Origin: Candidatus Gemmiger excrementipullorum
Lineage (GTDB): Bacteria > Bacillota > Clostridia > Oscillospirales > Ruminococcaceae
Assembly (NCBI GenBank): GCA_019115045.1
Contig: DXEI01000125.1
Coordinates: 1-38,137 of the forward strand
Reading direction: 5' to 3'
Length of the DNA: 38,137 nucleotides
The notes below the pieces were generated by a model. It saw nothing but the letters and a program-made list of their open reading frames with translations. It searched no databases and was not told where the DNA came from. The position numbers and the translations under genes are program-made. Of the stretch, positions 1,685-7,077 are shown one piece after another. Within the stretch, counting starts at the first letter, position 1, and each line of letters opens with the position of its first letter.

Positions 1685-3724
1685 TCAGGCAGGGTCGGCC
1701 GGGGGCTCGGCGGGCTGTTCGGGGACTGTATCTTCGGTCGGAGTGCTGCTGGATTCGTTGCCATCGGTAGTGCCAGCGCCGCCGTCGCCGGTATCACCGC
1801 CGTTGCCGCCGCCGTCGCCGCCGGTATCACCGCCGCCACCGCCGTCGCCGGTATTGCCACCGTCGCCAGTATTGCCGCTGTCGCCGGTATTGCCACCGTC
1901 GCCAGTATTGCCACCGTCGTCGGTATTGCCGCCGGTTTCGCCGCCACCAGTGCCGGGGTCGGTGCCGCCAGTGCCGGGGTCAGTGCCGCCAGTGCCGGGG
2001 TCAGTACCGCCGGTGCCGGGATCAGTACCGCCAGTGCCGGGGTCCGGTGCAGCCAGTGCGGGAATCTCCTCAGTGGTCATGGTACCGCAGACCGTGCAGG
2101 TATAGGTCCTTACGCCCGGCACGCCGACTAGCGGTTCTTTGGTCACTGTGCCGCTGTTCCAGCTGTGCCCCAGCGCGCCTATGGTTTCGGTCGTCTGCTG
2201 CCCGCAGGAGCACTGCCACACAACGTAACCGCTTTCGGTGCAGGTTGGGTTTTTCCGGCCTGCCTCTTTCGTAAAGCTATGGGTATGCGCCACCTGTTCG
2301 CTCTTGGTCTCGCCGCAGCGGCGGCAGGTGTAGGTGATGGTATCGCCGTTCTGGCTGCCGCCGTCCCAGTCATGGCCCAGGGCGGGGGTGTCTTTTTCGA
2401 TCACCTCGCCGCAGATGCTGCACGCATACTTGGCGCTGCCGGCGTACAGGCAGGTGGCGGGCGTCTCGCTGCCTTCCACCAGCACGTAATTGTGCTCGTG
2501 TGCGTCCGCTGTAAAATGGGCGGTCAGCACCACGCCGCCGGCGTTGGCGTTGGCGGGCATCGTGAACTGGATGGTCGCGCTGCTGTAGCTGCCGCCGGTG
2601 CTGGCGGTCCAGCCCGCAAACACAAAGCCTTCGTTGGGGATCGCCGTCACCGCGCTGGCCGTGCCGCCTTTCTTGACAAGCTGGCTCGTCGCGCCGGACA
2701 GTTTACCGCCGTTGGTGGCCACAAACTCCAGCGGCACCTTGGCGCCGCGCACGGCGATGGGGTCTTCGCTGATCAGGTTGGCCGGCACGCCGTCCGGCGT
2801 GGGGATGGTCCCCAGCGGCTGGGGGCGGCGGTCCTCGGTGATGTAGGCGTGGGTGCGCACATACTGGAAGTAGGCCGTCACGGCGTCTTTGGAAAGGTGC
2901 ACCCCATCCGAGAGCGTGTAGTCGGTCTTGGCCCAGCCGGTCGTTTCGTCGCGCAGCACCTCGGCGCTGTTCAGGAACTTGTAGCCGTTTTCCTCGCACA
3001 TTTTGACCAGCGCGGCATTGTAGGCGTCCACCTGGGTCATCGTCAAGTTGGTGTTCTCGCGCTGGCGGTCCAGCGGCGGGATGGCGCTGACAATGATATC
3101 GCAGTAAGGCCAGGCTTCCTCAATGGCCTGCAGCCCCTGTAAGTAGGTCTTGATAAAGTTGGTGGCGTCGGTCGAAGACCCGCTCAAATTGTTGGTGCCG
3201 TAGCAGATGATGATGCGCTTGGGCTTGAGCATCGCCACCGATTCCGGCACGGTGTACATGCCGGAATATCCTTTGAATTTTTCGCATTCCAGCGAGGTGA
3301 TGGACCCCACCCCCATGCTGACGACGCCGATGTTGTTGTCCAGCGTCGTAAACGCCTGGCCGGTCTCGTCGGCATACATCAGGTAGCGCGCCGTGTTGGA
3401 GTCGCCGATGAACAGCGTTTCTTCTACATAGCTGCGCCCGGCGTCGGGTGTTTCGCCCAGCACGGTGCCTGCCGCTGCGTTCTGCACGGCCAGGTCGGCC
3501 TCGCGCGGGGCGGTCTCGGCTGTTTCTGCCGTCTCGGCCGTGGCGGCGGTCTCGGCAGTCTCGGCCGTGGCCTGTTCGCCGCGGCCGGGGATCAGGCCGC
3601 CGCGCAGTACGATGACCACGATGCATACGACGGCGACCAGCACAGCGGCGCAGCCGCCGCCCAGCAAAGCCAGCTGCCGCCGGCTGAAACGGTCCAGCGG
3701 CGGGGGTAAGGACGGCAAGTTCAT
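1685..3724 (-). CDS. Membrane-anchored SGNH/GDSL hydrolase with Cys-pair region and Gly-rich tail
   Basis: A 679-residue extracytoplasmic esterase-like protein. The ATG at 3724 is preferred to the one at 3751 because a strong GGGAGGAG site lies just before it. Residues ~18-40 form a single membrane helix after a basic N-terminus, followed by an Ala/Glu/Thr-rich linker. The SGNH hydrolase domain (~100-300) shows GDSN (107-110, nucleophile Ser109), GTNN (176-179) and the Asp/His motif DGVH (273-276). Around 340-400 there is an InlB/Listeria-repeat-like beta segment (GFVFAGW). Residues ~400-545 carry four CxxC or CxC pairs spaced like small zinc-ribbon or disulfide modules. The last ~120 residues are low-complexity: five TDPGTGG repeats, then GNTGDG repeats. 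No LPXTG motif is visible, so the N-terminal helix is the only anchor seen. Substrate unknown; acyl groups on wall or surface polysaccharide are plausible for the family. Confidence 0.85.
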   Translation of the reverse strand: MNLPSLPPPLDRFSRRQLALLGGGCAAVLVAVVCIVVIVLRGGLIPGRGEQATAETAETAATAETAETAETAPREADLAVQNAAAGTVLGETPDAGRSYVEETLFIGDSNTARYLMYADETGQAFTTLDNNIGVVSMGVGSITSLECEKFKGYSGMYTVPESVAMLKPKRIIICYGTNNLSGSSTDATNFIKTYLQGLQAIEEAWPYCDIIVSAIPPLDRQRENTNLTMTQVDAYNAALVKMCEENGYKFLNSAEVLRDETTGWAKTDYTLSDGVHLSKDAVTAYFQYVRTHAYITEDRRPQPLGTIPTPDGVPANLISEDPIAVRGAKVPLEFVATNGGKLSGATSQLVKKGGTASAVTAIPNEGFVFAGWTASTGGSYSSATIQFTMPANANAGGVVLTAHFTADAHEHNYVLVEGSETPATCLYAGSAKYACSICGEVIEKDTPALGHDWDGGSQNGDTITYTCRRCGETKSEQVAHTHSFTKEAGRKNPTCTESGYVVWQCSCGQQTTETIGALGHSWNSGTVTKEPLVGVPGVRTYTCTVCGTMTTEEIPALAAPDPGTGGTDPGTGGTDPGTGGTDPGTGGTDPGTGGGETGGNTDDGGNTGDGGNTGDSGNTGDGGNTGDGGGGGDTGGDGGGNGGDTGDGGAGTTDGNESSSTPTEDTVPEQPAEPPADPA
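1942..2044 (-). repeat. Tandem 21-bp coding repeats (TDPGTGG x5) in the SGNH gene
   Basis: About five near-identical 21-bp units encode TDPGTGG. They are followed on the coding strand by shorter ~18-bp units encoding GNTGDG variants (about 1846-1926). Units differ mainly at synonymous positions. Such in-frame tandem units are prone to copy-number change between strains. Confidence 0.85.
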
Positions 3725-3759
3725 GGGGAACACTCCTCCCGGCAACATCAATATGTTTC

Positions 3760-3916: not shown

Positions 3917-3992
3917 GGGCCTGTAGCTCAGTTGGGAGAGCGTTCGGTTCGCATCCGAGAGGTCAAGGGTTCGAATCCCTCCAGGTCCACCA
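3917..3992 (+). tRNA. tRNA-Ala (anticodon CGC)
   Basis: A 76-nt cloverleaf with encoded CCA. The acceptor stem GGGCCTG pairs with CAGGTCC and contains the G3-U70 wobble that is the alanine identity element. The anticodon loop TTCGCAT gives CGC, reading GCG codons, which fits the GC-rich codon use. The T-arm GGTTCGAATCC is canonical. It forms an isolated transcription unit with its own promoter and terminator. Confidence 0.97.
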
Positions 3993-3994
3993 AT

Positions 3995-4028
3995 GCGCAG
4001 CACTCGTAATAGGGTGCTGCGCTTTTTT
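3995..4028 (+). terminator. Rho-independent terminator of tRNA-Ala
   Basis: 9-bp perfect stem GCGCAGCAC / GTGCTGCGC (3995-4003, 4014-4022) followed by six T. Confidence 0.9.
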
Positions 4029-4121: not shown

Positions 4122-4281
4122 CGCGAAAAAGAAACAAATCTTGCACATGGCGTAGAAAAACGTATGCGATGTGTGGATTGATTTCCCGCCCCGCTTTGCT
4201 CTATAGTACATCCAGAGAATACCGGACCGCGGCGGTGTTCCCATAATGACTTGGGTATCCGAGAGGAAGGATGAGGCATTC

Positions 4282-4563
4282 ATGGAAGGAGCAGGGCAAA
4301 ACTACCTTGCCATATATCAGCGTGATTTTTCAGAGCTGGAAGGCCTGCAGAAAGCGGACCGTGTCACGTATGCGCTGCGGCGTACACAGAGCGCCCTGTG
4401 TTTTCACGCCAGGCGGCGCACCTCTGCGCAGGACATCACCTGCAGCCTGTGCGGTCTGGATGAGGCGTTCGCCGGACGCCTGCTTTGCTATTTGTATGAG
4501 AATGCCGTAGCGCCGGAACAGGTCCCGGAGATCGTGCGCGACCTGTGCGGGGCGGCCGTATAA
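4282..4563 (+). CDS. Small uncharacterised protein, first gene of Spo0A-like cassette
   Basis: A 93-residue soluble, probably helical protein that I do not recognise. The ATG at 4282 is preceded by a GAGGAAGG tract about 11 bases upstream and by a closer GAGG; the in-frame upstream ATG at 4246 has no convincing ribosome site. The chain has an acidic/aromatic N-terminus, a basic middle segment (HARRRTSAQD) and one CxxC (TCSLCGL). No signal peptide or membrane helix is visible. It is 58 bases upstream of the Spo0A-like gene, downstream of a good promoter and with no terminator between, so it is probably co-transcribed. A regulatory or adaptor role in that cassette is only inferred from position. 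Confidence 0.7.
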   Translation: MEGAGQNYLAIYQRDFSELEGLQKADRVTYALRRTQSALCFHARRRTSAQDITCSLCGLDEAFAGRLLCYLYENAVAPEQVPEIVRDLCGAAV

Positions 4564-4621
4564 CGCCATGGTGGGGACGTTGGAACAGGGGCGCCCGGCC
4601 CCGCAGAAAGGAAGAATGTAT

Positions 4622-5371
4622 ATGCCGTCAGCTCCGGGCCGCCAGACCGTCGTTGCCGTATTTGCCAGCGTTGCCCGGCTGGAACGCGAATGCATCCGCC
4701 TGTATGCCCAGACCCACCCGGAAGTCCGCGCGGCGGCCGTCGTGCCGGACGGCGCACAGCTTTTGCAGCTGCTGCGCAGCGGGCTGCACCCGCAGGTGGT
4801 GGTCCTTGACGCGATGCTCGGCGGGATCTTTTCGCTGGTCGAAGAGATCCGCGCGCTGCACCTGGAGCCGGAACCGGCGCTGCTGCTGATGGTGCCGCTG
4901 CCCGAAAAATCAGCGGCACGGGACGCCATACAGGCGCTGGGAAACTGCGAACTGCTGCTCAAACCCTGCTGCATGAAAGACCTGTTCGACCAGGTCTACC
5001 TGATGGGCGTCGGGGCGGACCAGTTCCGCCTGTACCGCATCCGCCGCTGCTGCCGGCGGTACCTGCAGCAGATGCAGGCCGACCCGGCCATGAGCGGCTG
5101 TGATTACCTGGAACAGATGCTGCTGTACGCCATGACGTCGGAACGTCCGCTGCCGCTGGCTGCGCTGTACCAGCTGACAGCGCAGGACAACAACACGCAG
5201 GAAGGCAGCATCGCCGCGGCGATCGGGCGGCTTTCACGCAAGATGCAGCGGCAGGGCACGCCGGTGTACCGGGAACTCTGCCGCCGGTGCGGCCTGCCCG
5301 AAACCGCGTCGCTGCCCAATGGCAAGCTGCTGAAAGCGATGCTGGAGCTGCTGCAGCAAGAGATCGTATGA
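4622..5371 (+). CDS. Degenerate Spo0A-like response regulator
   Basis: A 249-residue two-domain protein that aligns by eye along the whole of Spo0A. Residues ~8-130 form a receiver-like domain. The expected phospho-acceptor Asp is present (VVVLDAML, Asp63), as is the conserved Lys (LLLKPCCMKDL, Lys114), which lines up with Spo0A's FILKPFDMENL. The N-terminal acidic pair that binds Mg2+ is replaced by Ala15-Ser16 (VAVFAS), and the switch Thr is Val91. Residues ~145-249 resemble the Spo0A DNA-binding domain: SGCDYLEQML matches its KGYLYLREAI region, followed by an altered recognition helix. The ATG at 4622 is chosen because AAAGGAAG lies ~7 bases before it; the ATG at 4616 is too close to that site. 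The gene is followed 29 bases later by a kinase-like gene. A diverged paralogue or relic in a non-sporulating lineage, or a re-purposed regulator, are the alternatives. Confidence 0.75.
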   Translation: MPSAPGRQTVVAVFASVARLERECIRLYAQTHPEVRAAAVVPDGAQLLQLLRSGLHPQVVVLDAMLGGIFSLVEEIRALHLEPEPALLLMVPLPEKSAARDAIQALGNCELLLKPCCMKDLFDQVYLMGVGADQFRLYRIRRCCRRYLQQMQADPAMSGCDYLEQMLLYAMTSERPLPLAALYQLTAQDNNTQEGSIAAAIGRLSRKMQRQGTPVYRELCRRCGLPETASLPNGKLLKAMLELLQQEIV

Positions 5372-5400: not shown

Positions 5401-6210
5401 ATGCAGACGAAGGAACAGGAACTGATGATGGCGCTGCGCGGCGGTCTGCAGGGGCGGTTTCGGAACTCTTTTCATCTGTTGAACGTTGCGCTTGAGGTCT
5501 TGGACGACCAGATGCTCCACAGCGCCACGCCGGCACAGTACGACACGCTGCGCCCGATCTTTGCGCAGATCAACGCGCAGCTGTTGCTGCTGCGCCGCCT
5601 GGGCGAGCATGCCGCCGACGCGGCCATTGCGCCGGTGCTGCGGCAGGTCTGCACGCCGCAGCCCATGGAACTGCTGAGCCAGCTGCGCGAGACAGAGCAG
5701 ATCGTGAACGAGATCCTTGCGCAGGCCAAGATAGAGGGCACCGTGCGCGTGGAAGCGGACGCGGGCATGCAGGCGCTGCTGACGATGGGCGACCCCGCGC
5801 TGCTGGACGGGCTGCTGGCCAACCTGTTTTCCAATTCGCTGGCTGCGCGGCAGCCTGCGCAGATCACCCTGGCCTGCCTGCCGGGGACCTTTTTATACCG
5901 CGACAACGGCCCCGGCCTGCCGCCGGACGCCGCCGTATTCCTGCGCACCGGCGTGTGGAGCGACCGCCTGCTGGAACAGGGCGGCCTGGGCCTGCCGCTG
6001 GTGCGCGCCTATGCGCAGGCGATGGGCTGGACGCTGACGGTGCCGGACGGCCCCGGCATGGAACTGCAGTTTGCCCTGCCCCCCTGCGACATGCAGCTGG
6101 GCAGCGTCGTGCTGGAGTCCGGCACGGTCGCCCGCTGCCCACAGTGGCGCCGCCAACGCCTGCAGGAGGAACTGGCCCCGCTGCTGGCCCCGCCGCCGGA
6201 AACTTTGTGA
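5401..6210 (+). CDS. Histidine-kinase-like ATPase, probably without phospho-acceptor His
   Basis: A 269-residue cytoplasmic protein with no membrane helix or sensor domain. Residues ~8-75 look like a DHp helical hairpin, but the position matching the H-box HDLRNPL reads GRFRNSF (18-24), so the acceptor His appears to be Gly18; His25 is nearby but off-register. Residues ~115-235 form a GHKL ATPase fold with an N-box (NLFSN, Asn141 and Asn145), a G1 box (DNGPG, 168-172) and a G2 box (GGLGL, 194-198), so ATP binding looks intact. The ATG at 5401 follows AGGAAAGGGG; an in-frame ATG overlapping the previous stop (5368) is possible but has no site of its own. It is the last gene of the cassette, ending at a strong terminator. 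A Spo0B-like phosphotransferase or an allosteric partner of the upstream regulator are possible roles. Confidence 0.75.
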   Translation: MQTKEQELMMALRGGLQGRFRNSFHLLNVALEVLDDQMLHSATPAQYDTLRPIFAQINAQLLLLRRLGEHAADAAIAPVLRQVCTPQPMELLSQLRETEQIVNEILAQAKIEGTVRVEADAGMQALLTMGDPALLDGLLANLFSNSLAARQPAQITLACLPGTFLYRDNGPGLPPDAAVFLRTGVWSDRLLEQGGLGLPLVRAYAQAMGWTLTVPDGPGMELQFALPPCDMQLGSVVLESGTVARCPQWRRQRLQEELAPLLAPPPETL

Positions 6211-6227
6211 TAACGCCTATACGGTCC

Positions 6228-6256
6228 GCCGCCCCTGCCGGGGCGGCTCTTTTTTT
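6228..6256 (+). terminator. Terminator of the Spo0A-like cassette
   Basis: 8-bp stem GCCGCCCC / GGGGCGGC (6228-6235, 6240-6247) with a TGCC loop, followed by TCTTTTTTT. Confidence 0.9.
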
Positions 6257-6369: not shown

Positions 6370-7077
6370 ATGGAGATCCGCTATAACCGCATCCTGCTCA
6401 AAGTCAGCGGCGAGGCGCTGGCCGGCCCCAAAGGCGCCGGCTTTGACGAGGGGACCATCGCGTCCATCTGCGCCGGCATCAAGGCCGCGTATGACCTCGG
6501 CGCGCAGATCGGCATCGTCGTGGGCGGCGGCAACTTCTGGCGCGGGCGTTCCAGCGGCAAAATGGACCGCATGGACGCCGACAAGATCGGCATGCTGGCG
6601 ACCGTCATGAACGCCCTGGCCGTCAAGGACGCGCTGCGCCAGCAGGGCGTGCCGGCCGTGGTCATGACCAGCTCGTTCATGCCGCAGGTGGCCGAGGTGT
6701 TCACCAGCGACAAAGCCATCGCCGCGCTGCAAAGCGGCCAGGTCGTCGTGTTCGGCGGCGGCACCGGCAACCCCATTTTCTCGACCGATACCGCCTCGGC
6801 GCTGCGCGCGCTGGAGATCGGCGCCGACGCCATGTTCAAAGCCACGATGGTGGACGGCGTCTACGACAAAGACCCCCACAAATACCCCGACGCCGTGCGC
6901 TACGATACGCTCACCTTCACCCGCGTGCTGGACGAGCGCCTGGCGGTCATGGACTCTACGGCCGCGACGCTCTGCCGCGACAACCACCTGCCCATCCTCG
7001 TGTTCGACCTGGGCGAGCCCGCCAACATCGCCAAAGCGCTGCGCGGCGAGGCCGTGGGCACCCTGGTGCAGGAGTAA
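6370..7077 (+). CDS. pyrH: UMP kinase
   Basis: Cytoplasmic UMP kinase (UMP + ATP to UDP + ADP) of the amino-acid-kinase fold, 235 residues, the usual family length. Visible motifs are LLKVSGEAL near the N-terminus, the glycine loop VVGGGNFWRG, KIGMLATVMNALA, the nucleotide loop VFGGGTGNP with STDTAS, and the C-terminal MDSTAATLC. The ATG at 6370 is chosen because the conserved N-terminus starts there, with AGGTGGTG upstream; an extension from 6310 would add a Cys/Arg-rich stretch atypical of the family. It opens a housekeeping cluster and is followed 77 bases later by frr, the classical order. The rpsB and tsf genes that often precede it are absent here; the Spo0A-like cassette occupies that position. 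Confidence 0.97.
   Translation: MEIRYNRILLKVSGEALAGPKGAGFDEGTIASICAGIKAAYDLGAQIGIVVGGGNFWRGRSSGKMDRMDADKIGMLATVMNALAVKDALRQQGVPAVVMTSSFMPQVAEVFTSDKAIAALQSGQVVVFGGGTGNPIFSTDTASALRALEIGADAMFKATMVDGVYDKDPHKYPDAVRYDTLTFTRVLDERLAVMDSTAATLCRDNHLPILVFDLGEPANIAKALRGEAVGTLVQE

Follow-up and report, generated by a model that had tools for sequence, protein, structure and literature searches.

Can a regulator of the Spo0A type operate once part of the phosphate-accepting site of its receiver has been lost, and what would switch it in that case? This question is raised by a gene at positions 4622–5371 (+ strand) of a 38,137-nucleotide stretch of contig DXEI01000125.1 from Candidatus Gemmiger excrementipullorum (assembly GCA_019115045.1), referred to here in its full length as the window. 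The gene encodes a 249-residue pseudo-response regulator of the Spo0A type, P0001, with a receiver at residues ~8–130 and a Spo0A_C-like domain at ~136–249, and it is followed by a gene for a 269-residue protein that resembles a histidine kinase without its phospho-accepting histidine. Both were compared with their counterparts in a sample of 35 Gemmiger genomes and in relatives from other genera (G and L numbers denote genomes and loci, respectively; RR denotes the response regulator of a pair). We favour, with a probability of roughly 0.55, the reading that the duplicated and diverged Spo0A-type regulator and the adjoining GHKL protein are a conserved pair that works without His–Asp phosphotransfer, probably through ATP-dependent binding.

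A diverged paralogue of Spo0A

When scanned alone against Pfam-A, P0001 gave no receiver (PF00072) or Spo0A_C (PF08769) match at a useful level, and the best matches in a phmmer search of PDB sequences were Spo0A receivers with E-values of 0.0028 to 0.012. An orthologue alignment was made from 33 of the 35 Gemmiger proteins (G220 was omitted as near-identical to G219, and G224 for having no ATG near its start) and compared with 14 canonical Spo0As using hhalign, which returned a probability of 99.8% and E = 1.2e-27 over 241 columns spanning both domains, a profile–profile match well above chance. At E ≤ 0.01, 24 of these 33 orthologues matched PF00072 and 19 matched PF08769; the curated cut-off of PF08769 was exceeded by the paralogue in 12 of 35 Gemmiger genomes. 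The initial annotation of this gene had aligned it with Spo0A by eye across both domains, which these comparisons confirmed, and had named the lack of a Spo0A_C match in profile searches as the result that would count against it. That lack holds for the window protein by itself, and not for 19 of the 33 orthologues. The proposition that P0001 has no Spo0A homology, drawn from the empty Pfam scan of the single protein, was rejected because the orthologue scans and the hhalign comparison show homology. The predicted structure of P0001, made with three sequences in the alignment, contained a clear (beta-alpha)5 receiver, with a predicted local distance difference test score (pLDDT) of 71–92 per 10-residue block across residues 11–90, followed by six low-confidence helices, the mean pLDDT being 61. 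A Foldseek search with this model returned a Spo0A receiver (5wq0) as its top match. Judged from the alignments, homology between the P0001 family and Spo0A extends across both domains.

The single PF08769 match in the genome is a canonical spo0A on contig C113 (G000:C113), and P0001 is therefore an extra paralogue and not the genome's single master Spo0A, which is one of the two possibilities that had been raised for it. The paralogue was found in all 35 Gemmiger genomes. Each of them had at least one PF08769 match and 34 had a canonical copy, the sole match in G206 being the paralogue.

Of the residues with which a receiver accepts phosphate, P0001 retains Asp63 at the phospho-acceptor position (4808–4810, +) and Lys114 (4961–4963, +), as initially annotated; these are Asp in 35 of 35 Gemmiger orthologues and Lys in 32, with Arg in the other 3. 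The acidic pair that binds Mg2+ and the switch Thr/Ser are absent. The pair had been given as Ala-Ser and the switch residue as Val: no acidic residue occurs in either register, but Ala15-Ser16 is one position off, since the family alignment places the pair at Ser16-Val17 (codons at 4667–4672, +), and the residue aligned with the switch is Met90, Val91 being its neighbour. P0001 thus lacks key active-site residues, as pseudo-receivers do by the definition of PMC12632262. Across the genus, Thr or Ser stands at the switch column or the next one in 29 of 35 orthologues, and the acidic pair varies, its first position being acidic in 22, its second in 6 and both in 1; the nearest relatives of the window copy carry S-A, A-G, T-D, A-E or T-E. 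On this alignment, the window copy, with its lost residues, stands at one extreme of a series. Orthologues with a normal pair, which had been expected to speak against a dismantled site, were encountered in part, namely as syntenic relatives in other genera (G134, G341, G046 and others) with an intact pair, and the state in the window genome would thus most simply be a derived loss.

The putative DNA recognition helix has also diverged. The canonical sequence SRVERAIRH, invariant in 14 of 14 canonical Spo0As, reads GSIAAAIGR in P0001, so that all five polar positions checked have changed (Arg, Glu, Arg, Arg and His to Ser, Ala, Ala, Gly and Arg). The canonical His position is Arg in all 35 Gemmiger paralogues (Arg203 in P0001; 5228–5230, +), and the canonical Glu position is still acidic in 29 of 30 relatives outside the genus. 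In Clostridioides difficile, according to passages of PMC3485338, Spo0A keeps all of the DNA-contacting residues known from Bacillus subtilis and reads a TGTCGAA-like motif. Given this conservation and the changed helix, the paralogue is unlikely to recognise the 0A box as canonical Spo0A does; it probably reads some other site or works by protein contacts. Exact 0A boxes numbered 2 in the window, where 3 were expected, and none lay near the gene cluster.

The adjoining kinase-like protein and its relatives

The gene for the kinase-like protein (5401–6210, +) begins after a gap of 29 bases and was not mentioned in the initial annotation. Its product carries a HATPase_c domain (PF02518, residues 130–227; 35.9 bits against a cut-off of 26.4) and no other Pfam domain, the scan giving neither a HisKA (PF00512) nor a sensor-domain match. 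A GGLQGR motif (residues 14–19; 5440–5457, +) replaces the H-box, with Gly18 at the phospho-His position. This position is Gly in 35 of 35 Gemmiger partners, within a GGLxGR motif of which G14, G15, G18 and R19 are each present in all 35, and the position next to the His site is accordingly Arg throughout. The N-box Asn (Asn145) and the G1 Asp (Asp168) are likewise each kept in 35 of 35. So far as the alignment can tell, the neighbour is a kinase-like protein without a phospho-His, and a protein of this kind cannot autophosphorylate in the usual way or hand phosphate to Asp63. By comparison, His was kept in 13 of 13 PF00512 matches elsewhere in the genome, 12 of which are distinct (L238 and L245 are the same stretch on two contigs). 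Passages of PMC12632262 put HisKA domains without His at 0.9% and receivers without Asp at 2.0%. With the weak structure model of the kinase-like protein, Foldseek placed kinases with dimerisation and histidine phosphotransfer (DHp) and catalytic (CA) domains first (CckA, RetS and HK853).

Both genes are maintained. The ratio of nonsynonymous to synonymous substitution (dN/dS; Nei-Gojobori), calculated for pairs of Gemmiger genomes, was 0.08–0.18 for the RR and 0.16–0.31 for the kinase-like gene in 8 of 9 pairs, while the ninth pair, the nearly identical G219/G220, gave 0.36 and 0.09, respectively. For pyrH, which lies downstream, dN/dS was 0.02–0.11 in 8 pairs and unreadable in one. Both genes are thus under purifying selection, which is less tight than that on pyrH. 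No stop codon was found inside the paralogue in the 35 Gemmiger copies, and the possibility that it is a pseudogene was rejected on the grounds of purifying selection and intact frames.

An iterated profile located the kinase-like neighbour at 60 of 62 loci. The two loci without it were left out of the trees: L136 ends 91 bases past the RR, and L135 has 3.2 kb downstream with no pyrH and no match. Outside Gemmiger, 22 pyrH-linked pairs were found in 21 genomes from 12 genera. Their His site is His in 8 pairs and A, Q, C, K, N, E, G or M in 13, and is gapped in G020, where it reads Ile by eye. The phospho-acceptor Asp was aligned in 15 of 22 (G058 was unreadable) and all receiver residues were present in 7; the pairs of G134, G341, G381, G413 and G046 are intact on both sides. 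Nine further pairs had no pyrH in the fetched stretch, and His was kept in 3 of these. HisKA matches were obtained for the kinases of relatives at L118, L125, L201, L123 and L137. The kinase of G119 (no pyrH in the stretch) has GAF and PAS domains, which indicates that the short kinase form may be derived; that of G381 is short yet has His. G052, which is 66% complete with 4% contamination, holds two different pyrH-linked copies and could represent a mixed bin.

A quick maximum-likelihood tree was built from RR and kinase, 31 of its 63 inner branches being supported at ≥95. Whichever of the tried rootings was used, irreversible loss of His called for no fewer than 7 events, with 66 rows and with the 52 pyrH-linked rows alike, and for 6 or 5 events on trees collapsed to branches of ≥80 or ≥95, respectively. 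All 27 loci from outside the family, which were the best matches of 295 genomes searched, carry a canonical Spo0A, with no pyrH within a flank of at most 1,500 bases. The region upstream of pyrH was also surveyed in 40 of 114 genomes with a pyrH match, chosen mostly by descending pyrH similarity (a non-random sample, with genomes already read left out): the pair was present in 6 (in G058 the end of the fetched stretch truncates the RR), neither gene matched at E ≤ 1e-5 in 33, and an unrelated regulator preceded pyrH in G018. The pair as an order-wide feature was therefore rejected, as far as the order was sampled. In G018, an RR with an intact receiver and a kinase with a His-to-Tyr change (L115, L203) are found on a contig other than that of pyrH.

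Possible modes of action

If the pair works without phosphotransfer, its ancestral state would have been the intact pairs seen in relatives, and the Spo0A-like and kinase-like proteins would still bind each other via the old DHp–receiver interface. The freedom of the Spo0A-like protein to dimerise and to bind DNA would then depend on the ATP state of its kinase-like partner, perhaps in concert with a DUF6514-like protein encoded at the start of the cluster. We propose more tentatively that an adjacent two-component pair may have given up His–Asp phosphotransfer several times in this clade with both genes under selection, which might have left an ATP-gated, phosphate-free partner switch acting on a Spo0A-type DNA-binding protein, in which GGLxGR could be a new interface that replaces the H-box.

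Several observations weigh against these proposals. Foremost among these is how strictly Asp63 is conserved: Asp in 35 of 35 orthologues, together with the counts for Lys and Thr/Ser given above, would be hard to explain if phosphorylation were irrelevant genus-wide, and joint loss of the acidic pair and Thr/Ser is confined to that part of the genus tree which holds the window copy. Even in the canonical Gemmiger Spo0A the acidic pair reads Asp-Thr, although the phospho-acceptor Asp and the Lys are retained (30 of 30 read; L001 1474–2238 (−) and L141–L169), so that one lost acidic residue cannot be equated with lost phosphorylation in this lineage. In other families of the order, the second acidic residue is absent in 21 of 27 canonical Spo0As and acidic in 6 (L170–L196, best matches and thus non-random). 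These altered pairs in canonical proteins weaken the initial argument that a damaged acidic pair speaks against phosphorelay control; the phosphorylation-independent control that it had suggested is supported in direction, and the His-less neighbour strengthens it. The PF00512 model includes the H-box, which biases the genomic control towards kinases that have one. Once His may also be regained, 5 changes are enough on the tree, the root of which was not inferred; joint decay of RR and kinase on that tree reached no significance (starred branches gave 4 independent pairs), and the losses are seen in either order, with His lost and the receiver intact in G290, and His kept and Asp changed to Ser in G234. 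Outside the receiver the structure models are weak (mean pLDDT of 61 for the RR and 55.8 for the kinase-like protein). Finally, pyrH lies outside the fetched stretch in 4 of 35 Gemmiger genomes, and since a terminator-like site stands between the pair and pyrH, synteny need not equal shared transcription.

Phosphorylation of Asp63 might still be the switch, with the phosphate coming from a different kinase or from small phosphodonors (acetyl phosphate, for example) and with the His-less neighbour acting as a phosphatase or brake. We consider this doubtful. In its favour, the genus keeps Asp63 without exception and Lys almost so, Thr/Ser and an acidic first pair position are common there, the canonical Gemmiger Spo0A has only one acidic residue at the pair, and substitutions of DD, T or K need not ablate phosphorylation (passages of PMC12632262). 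The window protein, however, has neither acidic residue and no switch Thr/Ser. A phosphatase role for the neighbour also sits poorly with its sequence. HisKA phosphatases use Thr or Asn four residues after His, and the residue next to His is usually acidic; in the 35 Gemmiger partners the former position is variable (G 11, Q 5, R 5, E 4, N 3, S 3, A 2, T 1, K 1), and the latter is the invariant Arg. The GHKL protein could instead work as SpoIIAB or RsbW do, as a partner switch of the anti-sigma-like or Ser/Thr kinase type, and have the Spo0A-like or the DUF6514-like protein as its partner. This would account for ATP-binding motifs kept without His and for the lack of a sensor domain in the Pfam scan, but it is unlikely in view of the HisKA kinship of the five relatives named above and the DHp–CA kinases that head the Foldseek matches of the weak model.

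Two further explanations carry very little weight. The alignment might mislead, with the true phospho-His elsewhere in the kinase-like protein, for example at His25 of the window copy, seven residues past the H-box position; this is most improbable, as the column richest in His has it in no more than 12 of the 35 Gemmiger sequences. Equally improbable, and already disfavoured, is a decaying pair without function. Fast sequence change, repeated loss of catalytic residues and a short kinase without the GAF and PAS domains of the G119 relative would fit such a remnant. Presence in 35 of 35 genomes, the absence of internal stops from the 35 copies, dN/dS of 0.08–0.31 in 8 of 9 pairs, and the conservation in all 35 of the Gly and Arg residues of GGLxGR and of Asp63, Gly159, Tyr162, Leu182 and Arg203 do not.

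Compared with known systems, P0001 resembles Spo0A (PF00072 + PF08769) in that its receiver and C-terminal helical domain align over the full length, Asp and Lys are kept, and the receiver fold is predicted. It differs in being a paralogue beside a canonical gene, in lacking the acidic pair and the switch Thr/Ser in the window copy, in its five changed recognition-helix positions, and in being paired with a cognate kinase-like gene at pyrH. BldM, WhiI, GlnR, RitR, CmrT and FrzS are pseudo-receivers or atypical regulators that likewise have a receiver fold but lack some of the residues needed for phosphorylation; the partner of P0001, unlike in those cases, adjoins it and has no phospho-His of its own. 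Passages of PMC12632262 call the switching of bacterial pseudo-receivers a mystery and also state that only 2 of 20 described bacterial atypical regulators are not orphans. For the kinase-like protein, the closest parallel drawn was with the pseudo-histidine kinase DivL of Caulobacter, a kinase fold in a non-kinase role that regulates the kinase CckA (parts of PMC4211667, PMC9430884 and PMC5361649). The Gemmiger partner would likewise be a kinase fold that serves as a non-kinase in a response-regulator network; unlike DivL, it adjoins a degenerate receiver, has no other kinase in its cluster and showed no sensor domain. The Spo0A-type RR and HisKA pairs of G046, G341, G119 and G114 share the family and the RR-then-kinase order with the Gemmiger pair, and those of G046 and G341 also the pyrH linkage; they differ in having intact receiver residues and kinase His and a longer kinase, with GAF and PAS in G119.

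A search of open-licence PMC papers (titles and the starts of abstracts among the matches listed) returned none on a Spo0A paralogue with a His-less partner, and the passages seen of PMC8340488, PMC6136694 and PMC12471899 make no mention of such a paralogue. The pair matters because its partner adjoins it and is itself without a phospho-His, where most pseudo-receivers described in PMC12632262 have no known partner, and because intact, half-lost and fully lost members in related genera form a natural series in which it can be asked when phosphotransfer became dispensable and what replaced it. This further suggests that regulators of the sporulation type in this order withstand the loss of standard receiver chemistry or have put it to use.

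Gene neighbourhood and sporulation genes

The place of the gene in front of pyrH, which the initial annotation had found unusual for spo0A, is real and conserved. In the window, pyrH is at 6373–7077 (+) and is followed by frr, and it lies at most ~3.2 kb downstream of the paralogue in 31 of 35 Gemmiger genomes. Among the matches listed for Spo0A together with pyrH in the same literature, nothing relevant was found. The terminator-like stem and T run between the kinase-like gene and pyrH (6228–6247, +) came from a pattern scan, which is not evidence of function. Upstream of the pair, the cluster begins with a small open reading frame for 105 residues (4246–4563, +), a relative of which stands 5' of the RR in 34 of 35 Gemmiger loci, so that it belongs to the conserved cluster. 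It appears to be a diverged relative of DUF6514 (PF20124): the window sequence scored 12.1 bits, under the cut-off of 23.9, and its counterpart in L125 (tblastn E-value of 7e-8) scored 29.8 bits, over it. A DUF6514 scan of the small open reading frames of five other relatives gave no match, and the open-licence PMC search found nothing on DUF6514. P0001 itself may begin further upstream, at an in-frame ATG at 4568 that would give 267 residues, since the corresponding ATG in G218 and G198 is the last before the receiver (GTG and TTG starts are not excluded); the start at 4622 has an AGGAAG motif resembling a ribosome-binding site 7 bases 5' of it.

The suggestion that this lineage no longer sporulates was not settled by the gene content: SpoIVA and canonical Spo0A are each present in 34 of 35 Gemmiger genomes, whereas the germination protease Gpr (PF03418) was found in none of the 35 (the B. 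subtilis control was positive) and small acid-soluble spore proteins were not found in the window genome, the only one searched. SpoIVA without Gpr is an odd sporulation gene set. No open-licence PMC paper was found on Gemmiger with sporulation and Spo0A. Among the 27 canonical Spo0As from other families of the order, the phospho-acceptor Asp is absent in 6, being Glu in 5 (by eye, L171, L173, L180, L181 and L191), which could mimic the phosphorylated state, and Gly in 1 (by eye, L194).

Further upstream in the window, a tRNA-Ala gene with anticodon CGC (3917–3992) stands just 5' of the cluster and is followed by a terminator-like stem (3995–4022). Beyond it, the gene at 1685–3751 (−) encodes a protein that combines a GDSL-lipase domain with a divergent InlB B-repeat; its C-terminus is of low complexity and abounds in DPGTGG and GDGGN-like repeats.
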